From NCBI RefSeq assembly GCF_000234665.1, contig NC_018335.1, positions 1,288,954-1,352,953 on the forward strand: 64,000 bases of DNA, written 5' to 3'. Shown here piece by piece: positions 8,176-48,315 of this stretch. The notes beneath the pieces are model-generated. The model saw only the letters and a list, made by a program, of their open reading frames with translations, did not search any database and was not told the origin of the DNA. The stretch is from Leishmania mexicana MHOM/GT/2001/U1103 (Eukaryota > Euglenozoa > Kinetoplastea > Trypanosomatida > Trypanosomatidae). The position numbers and the translations under genes were made by a program. Position 1 is the first letter of the stretch. Each line of letters begins with the position of its first letter.

Positions 8176-9546
8176 GGGCTGCTTTTCCTACCGATTATGA
8201 GAGTCGGACGAGGTGTAGCGAGCAGCAGCAGACGCCGGATACCAAGGCGAGGCACGGGGGTTGAGAGCGCGTCCACATAGATTGTCGCTCGCCAAGTAAG
8301 AACGAGGAAGTCGATCCAAAGGCTGCCGTGCGCATAGGTATGCCTATGCGCACGCGTCGACGTCTCTCTCTCACACTCTCTGCGTGTGCTCCGTACTCTT
8401 GTTGCTTTCCAGCGCACGTGTCTGCGGTTCTGTCCTCTGCTTGCGTGCCCGTGTCGTTCCGCTCTTTGCTACATCGTTACGCCGTCTCCTTGTGTGTCGA
8501 GTCGCTGCACGCGTCCCTCTCTTCCTGTCAGCCTCCTCTTCCTCCCCGCCTGCACATCTGCCTCTGCTTCGCACCGGGCGTGTACTCGCGCGCGTGTGCG
8601 CGTGCGCAGGCGCTTCGCCAAGGCGCGGACCCTGTAACAAGGCAGTGGATGCCGTGTTGTTTGAAGGACTGGGTTATGCGGACGGAAGCGGGCAGAGGAG
8701 GCGGCAGAGAAGAGCGGCCGGGACAACGAGTGGAGGACGGCTATTTCTAAACCGTACCGCACAGATAGAGCTAGGGAGAGGATGGGGAGGGGGAGGAGGA
8801 GGTGAAGTGGGAGGCGTCTCCGTGTGCTCGTCGCGTTTTTGTTTTCCCGTTTCTGACATGTTTTCGGCGTTTCCTTTACTGTGTCCGTCTCCAGTGTCCC
8901 TCCCCGTCGCGTTGTCTGAGCGTGTCTGTCTGCCGACTCCCTTCCAGTACCGCAACCGACTCGGACTGTAAGAAGGATGCGGCGAGAGGTGCGCAAGGAT
9001 GCACACATCCGCATGCATCTATCGGAGCACGAACTCTGACGGCGGGTGGCAGAGACTCGTCGTAGGTGCTCGCTCGATTTACGCCTATGCAGATTGGAGA
9101 GGAGAGGTCGAACGCAGGAAAAGGAGTGGGAGAGGGGGCGTGTGGCGTGTGGCGCAGAAGGGGAGGGCCGAGGTGCAGTTCACCGTTTCCGGCGTCCACA
9201 TGCCCGAACACGCAAGGCAGCGGGCAACGCGAGCGCACACGTGAGAGAAAGCGACGATCAGATGTGCGTGCGTGCCTTCACCTGCGGGGAGGCTTATTTT
9301 TTTTCTTTCCCGCGCCGTGTGGACGATCTTGAGCTCGGCGGATGGAGAGGGACGTGAAAGGGGAACTACAGTTTTGGCGCTCGTGCTCGCGTGCGTGTGT
9401 GCCCTCCTTCCTGTTGCGATGCTGTCGCAAATCGTCGATGGACCACCGTGTAGCTCGCTCGAACCGGCCCTCCTCTTTCCGTTCCGTGGTCGTGCAGGGT
9501 GGTCTCCGGTGGTGCGTGTGGGTTAAGTAATTAGCAGAGGGGGAGA

Positions 9547-9569
9547 GTGAGTGAGTGAGTGAGTGAGTG
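9547..9569. repeat. GTGA tetranucleotide microsatellite
   Basis: About six uninterrupted GTGA/GAGT units follow a short GA-rich stretch. The repeat lies in noncoding sequence after CCT alpha. Confidence 0.85.
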
Positions 9570-10094
9570 AAGGGGCGAAAAGGCGAAAGCAGCCACCCAC
9601 CTTAAAAAAAAGAATACCGTGTGCCCATGCATCCCCCATCCACCTTCACACAAGCGTATGCATGTGTGTGTGTGTACAGGTGCCCCTTCAGGTGACTGGT
9701 TGGCGGGCAGGTCTTCACACGTGCGCGCCACTGAGATAGGAAGCGAACAAAGCGAAACAAAACGCAGAAGCACGCAAGTGCGCGGGTGGGCACTCCGACA
9801 GAGAATGAAGCCGCGAAAGCTAAGAAAATCGCACACAAACGTGAGGCATGCGTGGCACTCTCACCGATCTCTCTTCTGCTCCACTCCCTCTGTCGCACTC
9901 TGCATAGATCCTGCGGAGGAGGAGCGGCACGAATTGGTGCTCTTGCGCACGTCGGCACTCCCCCCTCCACATCTGGCTATGGCTCTCATGCTTCTGTGTG
10001 CGGGCGTGTTGTGCAATGATGCAGCGTCCTCTGACGCGTCTGACGTATCTGCCTCGTTGCCGCTGGATTACCACATGGAGGCCGAAGCGGTGAC

Positions 10095-10221
10095 GCATGA
10101 TGCTGTTGTGCGTGTGTGCATGTGTTTCCTCCTCCAACGCCTTTTCAACTCCCTTCAGCCCTCTCCTCTCGCGCCTTGCTCACTTCGTATACACATGCGC
10201 ACACACGCAACAGCATCATGC
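10095..10221. repeat. 30-nt imperfect inverted repeat at the edge of the assembly gap
   Basis: Arm 10095-10124 and arm 10192-10221 are reverse complements at 27 of 30 positions, with about 67 nt between them. The right arm ends five bases before the N run at 10226. The arms could form a strong hairpin, which could help explain a sequencing gap, or they could be a read artefact. Confidence 0.75.
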
Positions 10222-10225
10222 AAGA

Positions 10226-10325
10226 NNNNNNNNNNNNNNNNNNNNNNNNNNNNNNNNNNNNNNNNNNNNNNNNNNNNNNNNNNNNNNNNNNNNNNNNNNN
10301 NNNNNNNNNNNNNNNNNNNNNNNNN
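10226..10325. other. Assembly gap (100 N)
   Basis: Exactly 100 N, a conventional placeholder for a gap of unknown size. The sequence to its right is cloning vector, so the true contents between 10225 and 11005 are unknown. Confidence 0.98.
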
Positions 10326-10435
10326 GAAGAAAGGCCCACCCGTGAAGGTGAGCCAGTGAGTTGATTGCAGTCCAGTTACGCTGGAGTCTGAGGCTCGTCC
10401 TGAATGATATCAAGCTTGAATTCGTTGACGACGTC
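10326..10435. other. Cloning-vector left arm (contamination)
   Basis: This stretch is unlike the surrounding DNA. It carries a polylinker-like cluster of restriction sites: GATATC, AAGCTT, GAATTC and GACGTC. It also contains CAGTCCAGTTACGCTGGAG at about 10369, which I recognise from memory as the left sequencing-primer site of pSMART-type plasmids. It stops exactly where a copy of 45461 onward starts (10436). It is not part of the genome. Confidence 0.9.
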
Positions 10436-10940
10436 CTCCTGTCTGTTGCGTCTCTCCTGATCTTCGCCGGCTTAGTGTCACACTCTTCTCTTCACCTTTC
10501 GTTCCTTCTTCTCCCCTTTTAACCCGCTATCGACACCAACGAGCACGGACAGGCTCCGGTCGTGTCATCACAGGCGTGATCCGGCGGGCAGAGGGTGCGA
10601 GTGGGCCGTATCAGCATATCTCACCGTCAACATTCATGCACTCCGAGCCGTCGATCCCCTTTTTGATCACCACCCCGCCCCCGCCCCGCACATACCCGTA
10701 TATAGCGTAAACGGAAGGCAGTAGAGCGTACTCCCGCAGGCCATTGCGTACTCTCTCTCTCTTTGGCGTCTCCGCTTCTGCTTCAAGGAACTTGGTTTGA
10801 CTTTCTTGACGTTTTGCCTCACGCACTCCGGCACACCCGACCACGCAGCCGGGACCAGCGATGCTGCGGCACCTGCGCATGGCCCCAGCCACCAAGAGGC
10901 CGCCCAGGTTGGAGGGGCAGCTTTTTGGTATGATCCAGGA
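10436..10940 (+). repeat. Misplaced 505-bp cloned copy of 45461-45965
   Basis: Bases 10436-10940 match 45461-45965 over the same length (505 bases) with no difference that I can see on reading. The copy contains the lipase leader region and the first 26 codons of the lipase gene, starting at the ATG at 10861. Both ends pass directly into vector sequence, so this is a plasmid insert placed here by the assembler, not a genomic duplication. Confidence 0.93.
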
Positions 10941-10986
10941 TGTCGTCGACGAATTCTCTAGATATCGCTCAATACTGACCATTTAA
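10861..10986 (+). pseudogene. Artefactual chimeric ORF: lipase start fused to vector
   Basis: An ATG at 10861 opens a 41-codon frame. It begins like the lipase at 45886 (MLRHLRMAPATKRPPRLE) and leaves the gene after 10940 into vector-encoded residues, ending at TAA 10984-10986. It should not be annotated as a gene or as a second lipase copy. Confidence 0.9.
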
Positions 10987-11001
10987 ATCATACCTGACCA
11001 A
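10941..11001. other. Cloning-vector right arm (contamination)
   Basis: The stretch contains GTCGAC, GAATTC, TCTAGA and GATATC sites and the string ACTGACCATTTAAATCATAC. I recognise the latter from memory as the reverse complement of the right primer site of pSMART-type plasmids. It ends at the three N at 11002-11004. It mirrors the polylinker of the left arm. Confidence 0.9.
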
Positions 11002-11004
11002 NNN
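11002..11004. other. Three undetermined bases joining vector to genomic sequence
   Basis: Three N separate the vector arm from sequence that again looks like trypanosomatid spacer. The join is unlikely to be real. Confidence 0.95.
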
Positions 11005-13115
11005 TTTTTACGCAGCGACTCGCTTTGTCGTGTTTCGTGTGCTGCGCACTTTGTCCAACGATCAACGAGTATAGCAGAGATTACTCGATACGGAAAATGT
11101 GCGTTGTCGTGCTCCTTACAAAACTGTTTGCCTTCTTCGCATAGATCTCTCACGCCTTTTTCTTCTTCACATATCGCATCTCCTCTTTGCCAGGTCTGTG
11201 TATGTGTGTGTGTGTGCCGTATCCCGCGCACCATTTCTGCGCTTCTCTGCCCTTCCGCCTCATCTCGACGCACATCTGTGGGTGAGCAAGCGACGAGAGA
11301 ACGAAAACACCAACACGAAACACACCGGGCGACGCATAACCGACCGCGCAGAGCCGGGCGCAAGGATCTGATCCATCAACACCTCCGTGGGCTTCTCGCT
11401 CGTTATGTGGGCCGCACGAGCAGATCTCACGGAGCCAGCTGACGGGAGGGTCGGGAAAGCGGGTATTGCGCCACACGACAAAAGAAGACGGAAGAAACTG
11501 CAGCGGCAAGCAGCCGCCCCTCCTAAGTGGCATGCATGCGGAGGTGATCCAGGCAGAGCCGATACACTATGGTGAAGGCCGTGCCTTGGCCATGAGGATG
11601 CCGACGACGAATCCTCGCGCGCTCTCCTCCGTGCCCCCTTCCTTTGCCTCCTGCCAAGGCCGGCAGGTGAGTGCGCGCCAGTGCATGCGGAGAGGGACCC
11701 CTTTCTTCGGTTGCGTCTGTCTGCTCATCTCCTGCATCGTTGTACGCTCTTCTCGGGACACCACGGTGCGACGAGATGCGGCAGGGGGAGGGCGATCGGG
11801 TTGTGCTCTCTCGTCGCAGTGGAGGCGGTGGCGTTGCGCTGCCTGGCGGTGCTACTTCCGGCGTCGATTTCCGTAGACACGGAGGGCCCCGCAACCTTGT
11901 GGTCTCTTGTCTGCCGTTGTACTTCGACCGCCCGTGCCTTGAGAGTCAGCCCCGCCCGCTCGACCGTCTGCATGCCTCCACCTGGCGGTGCCGGGGGCTG
12001 GAGGGGCACGCGGCTCGGCGCTGTCGCCCTTATACAAGCACAACCTACACGCGTATCGGTGTTCCTGAGTAGGACGCACTGTGCTCCTGACGGTGCGGGC
12101 CTCGGTGCCACTCTCGGTTCTTCCATCTCCCACTTCCCCCCCTCTCTCTGTCTCTCTCACCCGAAAAGGAAAGGGACGTGCTCACTGCACAGCTTGTAGG
12201 GGAGGTGTTATGAGTGTGCGAGTACAAAGTGAAGGAGTGTGTCTTTGTAGTGCAATCACCGAAGAACATCCCCCCCTCATCTCTCCCCCATCACTTCCTC
12301 TCTGCAGTGTGCGTGAGCGTGTGCTTCCATCACCTTCCACTGGCACGTGTGTGTTGTTCGCCGTTGCTTTGGTGGCCTCTCTCTTCATCCGGCATTGGCA
12401 GGCTTGTCAGTATCAGCGACCGCACGCCTACGCGAGCGGCTTTGTATACGCAATATCGAATTGTCTCCGTAGAGGCCTCTGGGACTGTTGACACACATAC
12501 ACACACACTTACTTGCACGCACAGATTTCTCCTCTCTCCGCCAAGAGAAGGAACAGCGAAGGACCAGAGCGCAGAGAACGTGTCTTTGCGATTAAGGAGG
12601 GACGCACACCCCGCGCAAGCGATCGTGGCCCCACGCAACTGACTCCCTCCCCTCAAAAAAAAAACAGACGAGAAGCGAGGCGGAAAGGCGCACGCAAACG
12701 ATTTGCATAACGGCTGGAAGGGAGCGACAGAAAATAGGAGTTCAACGAAGCAGGCCGCTGCCCCCTCCCCCTCCCCCTCCCCGAAAAGGCAGACACGGGC
12801 CCGGTGCGAGGCGATTGGCACATATACATTGGCGTTAGAAGTGAGCAAGCGGTGACGTACCACCTTTCTTGCTCTGCGTCTCTGTCGGTGCGCGTGCGTG
12901 CGTGTGTGTCTGATTCCTGCTGTCCCGTATCTCTCACTTGTACGTACTTGCTCTTTTGCTCTTGCATGCATGCATGTAGGTGTGTGTATGTGTGTGTGTG
13001 TCGTCCTCCCCTCCCGCTGCAGTGGCCGCTGTGTCTCACGACTCTCTTGTTCATTTTGTTGTTGTTTTCGGTTTCTTCGTCTATTGCTCACTGCCTTTGG
13101 TTTCTCTCTTTTTTT
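11005..13115. other. Intergenic region between the vector block and the second gap
   Basis: No supported gene. The middle part (about 11390-12110) is more complex and GC-rich than the flanking CT/GT-rich spacer and might be a degenerate retroposon. The rest holds (GT)n near 11199-11214, C/T runs around 12765-12785 and GT-rich stretches. A 172-codon frame at 11681-12199 has no recognisable domain. Confidence 0.6.
11860..12110 (+). repeat. Possible degenerate SIDER-type retroposon remnant
   Basis: This segment of a 3'UTR is GC-rich and non-simple, including CGGTGCCGGGGGCTGGAGG near 11983. It resembles, from memory, the SIDER retroposons scattered in Leishmania 3'UTRs that affect mRNA stability or translation. 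I see no target-site duplication or clear A-rich tail. This is a guess that a SIDER profile search would settle. Confidence 0.25.
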
Positions 13116-44228: not shown

Positions 44229-44639
44229 CGTTCACAGCCGCTGAGGGCGTGCTTTCCAAGATATCAGGGGCGTGAAAAGCGGTCCATTGTGCTCCACATT
44301 TGACTTGCATTTTTTTTTGTGTAAACGTCTGCTGTTGTTTCCTCCATCCTTTGAGTTGTCAGCGGGGCTATTCATTTGGTTGCATAGACACGGAGGGTTC
44401 AACCTCCCCTCCCCTCCCCTCCTCTCTCATTCACGAGTAGTAGCATCGGTCGTAGTTGTACCCGGCGGGCGGTGACTGACATATCGGCGTTGGGCTGCGG
44501 ACCGTGCCACACTCCCCCCTCCCCCAACAACGACAACTGCCATCACCACGGCCTCAGCACCGCCACTCTTCTCATTTTTTTGTTCAAATTTTGTTTTCTT
44601 CTATCGTGCCTCTGCGTGCGAAACGTCCTCTTGCACTCA
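44229..44639. repeat. Left copy of a 411-bp duplication flanking an assembly gap
   Basis: Matches 44740-45150 at the same length. The visible differences are three: T/C at 44255 vs 44766, C/N at 44256 vs 44767, and T/A at 44314 vs 44825. It ends exactly at the N run. This is most likely one locus assembled twice from overlapping contig ends. Confidence 0.95.
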
Positions 44640-44739
44640 NNNNNNNNNNNNNNNNNNNNNNNNNNNNNNNNNNNNNNNNNNNNNNNNNNNNNNNNNNNNN
44701 NNNNNNNNNNNNNNNNNNNNNNNNNNNNNNNNNNNNNNN
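44640..44739. other. Assembly gap (100 N), probably false
   Basis: Exactly 100 N between two copies of the same 411 bases. If the copies are one locus, the gap does not exist. Confidence 0.97.
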
Positions 44740-45150
44740 CGTTCACAGCCGCTGAGGGCGTGCTTCNCAAGATATCAGGGGCGTGAAAAGCGGTCCATTG
44801 TGCTCCACATTTGACTTGCATTTTATTTTGTGTAAACGTCTGCTGTTGTTTCCTCCATCCTTTGAGTTGTCAGCGGGGCTATTCATTTGGTTGCATAGAC
44901 ACGGAGGGTTCAACCTCCCCTCCCCTCCCCTCCTCTCTCATTCACGAGTAGTAGCATCGGTCGTAGTTGTACCCGGCGGGCGGTGACTGACATATCGGCG
45001 TTGGGCTGCGGACCGTGCCACACTCCCCCCTCCCCCAACAACGACAACTGCCATCACCACGGCCTCAGCACCGCCACTCTTCTCATTTTTTTGTTCAAAT
45101 TTTGTTTTCTTCTATCGTGCCTCTGCGTGCGAAACGTCCTCTTGCACTCA
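44740..45150. repeat. Right copy of the 411-bp duplication
   Basis: Begins at the first base after the gap and ends at 45150. After this the sequence continues uniquely towards the lipase gene. It carries an ambiguous N at 44767 close to the contig end, as expected of low-quality read ends. Confidence 0.95.
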
Positions 45151-45885
45151 CACTGGGCGCACTCACGGATACGCCGCTCTCTTTCATTTTCCTGTCCCTT
45201 CCCTCCCCTCCTTTGAGCACCTTTGCGGGTACCTCTGACAGCGTTGTTCTTTGCTCGTCCGCCTCTCTTCTTCCCCCCTACACAAACACACGCACGCACG
45301 CACAAATTTGAGGTTTGTAGTGGCAAAAAGTGAGAAGTGCTGCTGCGGACTGCGTTGTGTGTTGTTGACATCATTGCTACCCCTTTCTGTGCATGTATGT
45401 GTGTGTGCGTGTGCTTGGTGCGCGTCTTGCTGCGCTGCTGCCTCCCGTGGATCGCCTTCTCTCCTGTCTGTTGCGTCTCTCCTGATCTTCGCCGGCTTAG
45501 TGTCACACTCTTCTCTTCACCTTTCGTTCCTTCTTCTCCCCTTTTAACCCGCTATCGACACCAACGAGCACGGACAGGCTCCGGTCGTGTCATCACAGGC
45601 GTGATCCGGCGGGCAGAGGGTGCGAGTGGGCCGTATCAGCATATCTCACCGTCAACATTCATGCACTCCGAGCCGTCGATCCCCTTTTTGATCACCACCC
45701 CGCCCCCGCCCCGCACATACCCGTATATAGCGTAAACGGAAGGCAGTAGAGCGTACTCCCGCAGGCCATTGCGTACTCTCTCTCTCTTTGGCGTCTCCGC
45801 TTCTGCTTCAAGGAACTTGGTTTGACTTTCTTGACGTTTTGCCTCACGCACTCCGGCACACCCGACCACGCAGCCGGGACCAGCG
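45151..45885. other. Intergenic/leader region of the lipase gene
   Basis: No other gene. The part from 45461 is the source of the vector-cloned copy at 10436-10940. Contains two pyrimidine tracts (about 45508-45546 and 45775-45810). Confidence 0.75.
45775..45812 (+). promoter_or_regulatory. Predicted trans-splice acceptor for the lipase mRNA
   Basis: A CT-rich tract ends in TTCTGCTTCAAG, with AG at 45811-45812. The first ATG after it is the lipase start at 45886. The earlier AG at 45567-45568 would leave an upstream ATG at 45661. Confidence 0.45.
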
Positions 45886-48315
45886 ATGCTGCGGCACCTG
45901 CGCATGGCCCCAGCCACCAAGAGGCCGCCCAGGTTGGAGGGGCAGCTTTTTGGTATGATCCAGGAGTGGTGTCGGCCTCTCTACCGCTACCGCATTCCGC
46001 ACACCTCGACACCTCGTGACCGCGTGTGCACATGCGCCTACCCGCTCTACACCCTACGCTCCTCTCGACGCTCCCCGTATGACGAGCCAACCGTGTACAC
46101 GTCGGCACACGAGGCCATTCATGTGACTGGTGCTGGCGCGCCATCCACCAGCGATGCTCCCGCACTCTCTTGGAGGTTGTCTGGGTGCTCCTCGCCTGTC
46201 TACACGTCGGCCCCGGCCACCGCGAAAGGCTGCGCCGCTGCCTCGTCTTTCCTTTCGTCGTTCGGACGGCTTCCATCCCTGCGTGCCCGCTGGGCTGTGC
46301 GGCGGCGAGGATCACGCCAGGCTGCTGTCCCCCCGACCACCCCTTTAGCACCACCCCCGCAGTCGTCCGAGGCGTGCTACCGGTGCAACATATGTGATGG
46401 TCTGCAAGGCCACGCAGAGGCGAGCGACGGCGCGCTGACAACTTCTAGCGGATCCACTGGCACTGGTGCCGCATCGACAGAGCATGCAACCACCACAGCT
46501 ACCACGTCGTCAGCCGAGTGGAATGAAGAGGATGAAGGCGAAGGGACCACCGGCGTCGCTGCGGCCTCGCCTGACAGCAGCGTGGACGAGCGCTACGGTT
46601 ACACCATCTCCACTGACATCGCCAACACTGCCATGGAGGGCGCCGAAGTGGCGGAGCTCCGGCACCTGGACCCGTTCCACGTCGAGGTCTTCGGAGGACC
46701 GTCGTGGTCGGCGCTGACGAAGCGAATCGCGCGGGAGGTGCAGGCACAGTTCACCCGATGCGGCCTGCGCAAGCGAGACGTCTCGCGGTACGCCGCCCAG
46801 GCAGCCCTTAACAGTGAGATGAGTCGCCAGACGTACAAGTTGTGGGTGCGCCAAGGGTCGCGCCACATTCGTGAAAGGCAGCTGCAGTCGACCACGTCTG
46901 CCACTGCCATTGGCTCCTCTTCGCCGAAGTCCCAGCTCTCCGTTGCACCATCCGAGCAGGCGATAATCAAAGGCAAGCTGGACACGCTCCACACAGCCTG
47001 CTACCTCGCCCGCTACGCGATGGCCGCCTACGGGCTGCCCTTTGAGCTCAACTACTTTTCCAGCTTGCGTGAGCTGTCGAAGCTCATGGCAGAGCCTCAC
47101 CGGCGCTACGTCTGCGCCAACTCTGAGGAGCAGCTCGAGTCAATGCGCCGCATGCTGCAGGGCGAGGAGCCGAACGCGTTGCTTGAGTGTGTGGCAAGTC
47201 GCTACTCCCTTCGCGTAGGTCAATCTTGCTGGGCCCTCTTCCTGGACCACGCTACGAACCGAGTCGTGCTCACCTTCCGCGGCTCGCTGACGCCGGCAGA
47301 CATCGTGGTGGATGTGACAGAGGGCTATGCCAACGTCGTGCTGGAGCGCGTTCCTATGGATGGGGCAACGACGGCCACCGGCATCGACCCATCGCCGCAA
47401 CTGTGCACAGCAATTCCGCTGGGCTTCTACGAGTCCGTCATCGAGGCGGGTGCTCAGCTGCTCCCTCTCCTGCGTACCATCCACAGCCAATACAGCACCT
47501 ACCAGCTTTGCATCACCGGACACTCTCTGGGCGGTATCCAGGCCTCTCTCTTTCACCTTCTGTACTGCGGGCCGTGGCGCGCGGTGCTGCACTCGTCAAC
47601 GACGCTGATGCGCCGCGCAAAGACGCTCATGTGCCCCTCTTCGCTGCCTTCGGCGCCGCCTCCTGCCTCTGCAGCCATCGCGTCCGCTGACACAGCGACG
47701 GCCACGGCCAGCGCTGCCGCGCATGTGCCTTTTACCAAGACAGTGACTTGCACATTTGGTGCCGCCCCGGTCGTGGAGCGGCGTGTCGCTCCACTGCTGA
47801 ATGTGTGGCTGCACCAGGAGGAGCAGCGCTCTGGAAGTCGTCTTCTGGCCTTCAGCAATGGCATGGACGTATGTTCCCGGCTACAGTTGCGGTCGCTTCA
47901 GGACGCCTTTCTGCAGCAATACGCGCGGCCGACGGAGGAGAGTCTGTCTAGCGACGACAGGGCTGCCGTCTATGACACCGGAGCTGCGGTCGCAGGGGTG
48001 TCCGACCAATCCGTACCCCTGCTCGCCATTCCTGGCTCGTTGTACAACATGACATCCGGGACGCGCCGCCGCCATCTCCTTGCCGTTCCCCTTACCGCCA
48101 CCGCGGTGCGTGAGCAGGTGGTCCTCATTCCTGAAGCGGTCTTGCATCACTACCCCTCGCTCTATCTGCGCAACCTTAACGAGCTGCTGCGTCGGTATAG
48201 GACCAAGTGGCAGTCCATCTGCGACGATGCTACGACGACGCCGACCGCAACTGCCACCGCGGCAGCTGTAGCACTGTCAAGGGACAACCCCTCACGCGAG
48301 ATCCGTGGGGGGTGA
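45886..48315 (+). CDS. Class 3 (diacylglycerol-type) lipase
   Basis: Predicted serine hydrolase that cleaves acylglycerols. 809 residues. The first 320 or so are variable and low-complexity. The lipase_3 fold runs from about 360 to 770. Its oxyanion-side strand is VVLTFRGSLTPADIVVDV near 460. The nucleophile elbow is GHSLGG at 545-550, with S547. The candidate catalytic Asp is D661 in SNGMDVCSRL. The candidate His is H755 in HHYPSLYLRN, at the position where DAG lipases have DHxPxxY. A low-complexity Ala/Thr/Ser insert (about 585-615) separates the elbow from the next strand CTFGAAPVV, as in DAG lipases with a regulatory loop. No transmembrane bundle like that of animal DAGL-alpha is obvious. 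The ATG at 45886 is the first after the splice signal. The triad is assigned by motif, not by alignment. The first 26 codons recur in the vector insert at 10861. Confidence 0.92.
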   Translation: MLRHLRMAPATKRPPRLEGQLFGMIQEWCRPLYRYRIPHTSTPRDRVCTCAYPLYTLRSSRRSPYDEPTVYTSAHEAIHVTGAGAPSTSDAPALSWRLSGCSSPVYTSAPATAKGCAAASSFLSSFGRLPSLRARWAVRRRGSRQAAVPPTTPLAPPPQSSEACYRCNICDGLQGHAEASDGALTTSSGSTGTGAASTEHATTTATTSSAEWNEEDEGEGTTGVAAASPDSSVDERYGYTISTDIANTAMEGAEVAELRHLDPFHVEVFGGPSWSALTKRIAREVQAQFTRCGLRKRDVSRYAAQAALNSEMSRQTYKLWVRQGSRHIRERQLQSTTSATAIGSSSPKSQLSVAPSEQAIIKGKLDTLHTACYLARYAMAAYGLPFELNYFSSLRELSKLMAEPHRRYVCANSEEQLESMRRMLQGEEPNALLECVASRYSLRVGQSCWALFLDHATNRVVLTFRGSLTPADIVVDVTEGYANVVLERVPMDGATTATGIDPSPQLCTAIPLGFYESVIEAGAQLLPLLRTIHSQYSTYQLCITGHSLGGIQASLFHLLYCGPWRAVLHSSTTLMRRAKTLMCPSSLPSAPPPASAAIASADTATATASAAAHVPFTKTVTCTFGAAPVVERRVAPLLNVWLHQEEQRSGSRLLAFSNGMDVCSRLQLRSLQDAFLQQYARPTEESLSSDDRAAVYDTGAAVAGVSDQSVPLLAIPGSLYNMTSGTRRRHLLAVPLTATAVREQVVLIPEAVLHHYPSLYLRNLNELLRRYRTKWQSICDDATTTPTATATAAAVALSRDNPSREIRGG

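Follow-up and report, generated by a model that had tools for sequence, protein, structure and literature searches.

What is the 676-base block that lies between a 100-N scaffold gap and a short run of N in a chromosome-sized contig of Leishmania mexicana, and how did it come to stand there? The block belongs to a window of 64,000 nucleotides (G000:C31:1288954-1352953), which is the whole stretch of DNA analyzed here and forms part of an assembly of 32,032,822 bases in 545 contigs. Positions given without a contig name are those of the window. From the letters alone, the original prediction had placed two pieces of cloning vector at 10326-10435 and 10941-11001, between a 100-N gap and NNN, and these coordinates are exact to the base. 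It is practically certain that the block combines cloning-vector residue with a displaced copy of parasite DNA, that is, an artefact of an ordinary and well understood kind and not biology. How the two came together and were left inside the chromosome can be stated with less assurance.

The block has three parts, and its vector arms total 171 bases. The left arm (10326-10435, forward strand) follows immediately after the 100-N gap (10226-10325) and comprises a phage T3 terminator region, the SL1 primer site and restriction sites for EcoRV (10406), HindIII (10412) and EcoRI (10418); its terminal bases are GTTGACGACGTC. The clone insert occupies 10436-10940 (forward strand), although its last base, an A at 10940, can be assigned either to the insert or to the vector. 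The right arm (10941-11001, forward strand) carries sites for SalI (10945), EcoRI (10951), XbaI (10957), EcoRV (10961) and SwaI (10981), and it ends with the SR2 primer site and AA, directly before the NNN (11002-11004). These restriction sites had been described as standing in mirror order around the insert, which is correct for EcoRI and EcoRV but not for HindIII on the left and XbaI on the right, as these are different sites.

That 10326-10435 and 10941-11001 are arms from a cloning vector of the pSMART type is well supported by both primer sites. The SL1 site (CAGTCCAGTTACGCTGGAGTC, 10368-10388) and the SR2 site (10974-10999, reverse strand) are both complete, each occurs a single time in the window, and the two are oriented toward one another with the insert between them. 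Three papers print both primers: in one they were used on pSMART-HC Kan clones and are stated to flank the insert (PMC4432818), in another they were applied to a pSMART LC KAN library (PMC3561415), and in the third they appear in the primer table of a study using pSMART-LCAmp (PMC6137916). The recognition of pSMART-type primer sites in the original prediction was thus sound, both being present in full as printed in papers that use this vector. Across the literature searched, 10 papers contain the SL1 string and 5 the SR2 string. Vectors of this type have transcription terminators outside the left and right primer sites. On the left side, the T3 terminator region is present, the first 44 bases of the block (10326-10369) matching it at 95.5%; the best phage matches to the same bases come from two Klebsiella phages (97.7%), and the matching DNA is located inside or adjoining the phage ligase gene. 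On the right side, the window copy stops at SR2 and AA before the NNN, i.e., ahead of the position of the right terminator, which is absent there. In sister copies found elsewhere in the assembly, the right arm is followed by a hairpin, AAAAGCCTCCGACCGGAGGCTTTT, which we take to be the tonB terminator. The kanamycin marker is also absent from the window copy, where only arm fragments are present. In an unplaced contig (C102, L023), the right arm and the sequence that follows it span 999 bases up to the contig end, and 792 of them (79% of the query) match plasmid DNA annotated as APH(3′)-Ia at 96.6%, as expected of a Kan vector. Small contigs of this kind, with long vector runs past the right arm, stand as contigs of the assembly in their own right. 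The vector is probably a Kan version of pSMART; this identity is drawn from the primer strings in the papers, the similarity to the T3 terminator region and the marker carried by the sister copy rather than from a full vector record.

The arrangement resembles pSMART (Lucigen CloneSmart) in the facing SL1 and SR2 sites, the T3 terminator upstream of SL1, the sites for EcoRI and EcoRV that adjoin the cloning point and, in the sister copies, the kanamycin-marker match beyond the right arm. It differs in that no more than 171 bases of the arms stand here; GTTGACGACGTC and GATGTCGTCGAC at the cloning point may belong to the stock vector or to an added adaptor. Among plasmid records, the right arm had no match and the left arm only three short ones (28-30% of the query), and an exact search of genome_contigs (bacteria and archaea) and viral_contigs with a 52-base left-arm string found nothing. 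Some part of the block was matched by 7 of 5426 E. coli genomes, the best match being 43 bases in a BL21(DE3) record. A natural RNA feature was also considered and rejected, as the window contains no Rfam match at the gathering threshold and no tRNA or tmRNA.

The insert had been taken for foreign DNA, and this part of the original prediction has to be abandoned. All 505 bases are identical (505/505) to window positions 45461-45965 (forward strand), from which they are displaced by 35,025 bases. The downstream site spans the beginning of a conserved class 3 lipase gene, an ORF of 809 codons at 45886-48315, and takes in its initial codons and the region upstream of them. A class 3 lipase domain is present in 13 of the 13 relatives listed for this ORF; the best relative in the protein search, from L. 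tarentolae, reaches 82%, and an identical protein was not found in that search. The lipase frame indicates which of the two copies is in its proper place. At 45461-45965 it continues, directly beyond the end point of the copy, with WCRPLYRYR, a motif kept in 5/5 aligned relatives (Leishmania and Porcisia), whereas in the block it turns into vector, reading ...QDVVDEFSRYRSILTI in vector-coded residues and then a stop. The block is therefore the displaced copy and the downstream site the authentic one, the insert being DNA of this very chromosome in a wrong place. The displaced lipase start, fused to vector-coded residues, gives rise to a spurious ORF of 41 codons (10861-10986, forward strand). 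As had been anticipated for ORFs through the block, 10611-10982 (reverse strand) and 9658-10359 (forward strand) are spurious as well, so that such frames cross it on both strands, the last of them crossing the N gap and entering the vector. When the ORF at 10861-10986 was used as a protein query, no candidate sharing three words was returned, and there was no sign that this ORF was ever annotated.

The same vector is found well beyond the window. Exact strings of the arms occur in the 32.03-Mb genome at 9 places (left arm) and at 45 places (right arm), against 0 occurrences of the reversed control patterns, which shows that the recurrence is not due to chance. The plasmid sequence problem is assembly-wide, and the window block is one of at least 45 places. 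Together with the SL1 and SR2 sites, this recurrence bears out the claim that cloning-vector sequence has remained in the assembly. The right arm is found nine times on chromosome-sized contigs (C5, C18, three times on C20, C24, C30, C31, and C33), and the other 36 places are on 33 small contigs. L. mexicana is given 34 chromosomes in one paper (PMC9495971), and in another its chromosomes 8 and 20 correspond to L. major 8+29 and 20+36 (PMC4612428). The contigs numbered up to 34 for which the size was seen (C5, C8, C18, C20, C24, C30, C31, C33, and C34) measure 0.45-3.34 Mb each, C8 being of 1.67 Mb and C20 of 3.34 Mb; C35 and C36 are of 4.1 and 7.5 kb, respectively. On the insert side of the right-arm core, 17 bases, ATGTCGTCGACGAATTC, are common to 45/45 places, and the bases beyond them vary from one place to another (N in two of the 45). 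A 100-N gap adjoins every one of the nine chromosomal copies. Seven of them have vector up to the very edge of the gap; in C24 the gap precedes the arm by one base, and the window copy meets its gap with the left arm. Regarding the nine left arms, five start no more than 3 bases from where the window copy begins, three (C222, C277, and C517) begin exactly at the first base of SL1, and the one in C179 starts inside the arm, at a contig end. The bases before SL1 in C222 look as though the left arm had been read again, and poorly, so the start at SL1 in this contig may not be a clean terminus.

Two of the chromosomal copies deserve a separate comment. At C20:1239367-1240608 (L015), the 313 bases that adjoin the vector arm have an exact repeat on the other side of the neighboring 100-N gap (C20:1240296-1240608); since this repeat begins at the first base past the gap, the unclipped vector likely prevented the true join. 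For the 580-base piece beside the vector in C30, no second full copy was found in the 40 that were scored out of 413 candidates; the other matches among these 40 are of 73-89% and cover part of its first 250 bases, so only a dispersed repeat was found among them.

The right arm does not end in the same way at all of its places. In 38 of the 45 the vector continues past SR2 (in C503, through a run of N), while in the other seven (the window, C175, C478, C312, C222, C517, and C24) it stops with an A after the SR2 terminus and gives way to other DNA. N is present at the join in four of these seven, and C222, C517 and C24 are joined without it. The base after SR2 is A in 7/7 terminating copies; among the 38 continuing copies it is T in 30 and A in 8. 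An A in this position fits the untemplated A of a PCR product, but it is suggestive only, because vector variants with A at the same base exist. Seven contigs carry both arms, and the inserts of four were tested; an identical second copy of each of these four was found on one of the large contigs (C31, C21, C28, and C8). Two of the seven places ending in SR2 and A have been traced on both sides. These are C175 (L003), a small contig joining pieces of C21 and C14 at the SR2 terminus, and C478 (L005), another small contig, joining pieces of C28 and C27 at the same terminus. In the window block, both joined pieces (45461-45965 and 11005 onward) come from one contig.

The reading that we favor, with a probability of roughly 0.8, is that 10326-11001 represents an unclipped short library clone, carried by a hybrid molecule that was ligated to genomic DNA at about 11005. 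According to this reading, a piece of a small-insert clone terminating in SR2, such as a PCR product bearing an extra A, would have been ligated into the library vector together with a genomic fragment. Trimming would have removed the outer vector from the read but not the inner arms; the consensus of contig 11005-13115 would then have extended from its left end into the hybrid, and scaffolding would have placed this false contig end against the 100-N gap. At the NNN (11002-11004), the SR2 terminus would meet, in what is likely a chimeric join, sequence whose proper place is likely here. The arms, their repeated occurrence in the assembly, the identity of the insert to 45461-45965 and the breakpoint shared at SR2 are direct observations, from which we infer these hybrid-clone steps. 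In C175 and C478, unrelated genomic pieces are joined at a fixed vector terminus, as hybrid clones would be expected to show. An amplicon from SL1 to SR2 alone would be insufficient for the window block, because its left arm begins 42 bases upstream of SL1, and another left terminus is needed. In a broader form, the library may have been seeded with SR2-ended amplicons of earlier small-insert clones, religated to genomic DNA, each SR2 terminus with its A being a false two-locus join; we lean, with some reserve, toward this extension.

The main rival to the hybrid clone is a plain abutment, in which an ordinary small-insert clone, read through both arms, would have formed a small contig of its own and been put in the gap during scaffolding or abutted to 11005 with NNN, with no hybrid molecule involved. 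A block of 676 bases is indeed within reach of one or two capillary reads, and the 38 of 45 vector copies that run into further vector require no hybrid, but in the seven others the vector ends at SR2 and A before other DNA. The NNN resembles an abutment, as N is found at four of these seven joins; however, the other three (C222, C517, and C24) have none, and it is precisely at the SR2 terminus that C175 and C478 each combine segments of two large contigs. In addition, a read primed by a given primer does not show the site of that primer, and the block contains the whole SR2 site, which an SR2-primed read would not show. Plain abutment is consequently held to be improbable, although it deserves serious consideration.

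Much less can be said for a plasmid truly integrated in the chromosome of the strain, for example in a laboratory transfectant, with duplication of the 505-base target. The vector does lie inside a chromosome-sized contig and adjoins parasite DNA, but the right arm is present at 45 places with differing neighbors (36 of them on small contigs), all nine chromosomal copies touch assembly gaps, and the window holds only arm fragments; integration was rejected on these grounds and its probability is negligible. Equally negligible is a true duplication of the 505 bases in the parasite, with only the arms being artefactual, for which the 96-98% copies of the nearby segment at about 11580-12183 on the same contig might speak, against a 505/505 identity whose ends fall on the vector junctions and exact second copies in 3/3 other two-armed contigs tested.

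Returning to the hybrid clone as the preferred origin, its implications are mainly practical. The block introduces vector into a chromosome assembly and, with the 505 bases that take in the first lipase codons, a false duplication; this is a matter of curation and could mislead work on copy number, repeats, UTRs and gene models. VecScreen and UniVec are intended to catch vector contamination of genome assemblies. The present case is like such contamination in that unclipped vector lies at contig ends and beside gaps; it differs in that the piece brings with it a displaced 505-base parasite copy, likely from a hybrid clone, and for this reason masking the arms alone would leave the false duplication in place. 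The SR2-terminus places likely mark false joins, and masking the vector alone would not mend these either. If the seeding of the library with SR2-ended amplicons is true, the SR2 terminus followed by A would allow concealed mis-joins to be diagnosed in assemblies built from libraries of this kind. In the literature searched on Leishmania genomes, pSMART and vector contamination, no report of these vector copies was found, nor was a 32-base left-arm string. A transcriptome paper on L. mexicana from 2015 already advises caution over 41 novel transcripts in gap or misassembled regions (PMC4599935).

With regard to the surroundings of the block, no other full-length match was found for 11005-13115 and no other match was reported for 8226-10225. 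Therefore, by sequence comparison, these two segments are likely the true flanks, and the true sequence likely resumes at 11005. The window contains another 100-N gap at 44640-44739, on whose two sides 44229-44639 and 44740-45150 agree in 408 of 411 bases; of the three mismatching positions, one is an N. As these contig ends overlap, a join likely failed at this gap and left a false duplication of 411 bases. The segment at about 11580-12183 includes stretches with copies of 96-98% on the same contig, at C31:1384225, 1394582 and 1397597, and looks like a recent dispersed repeat.
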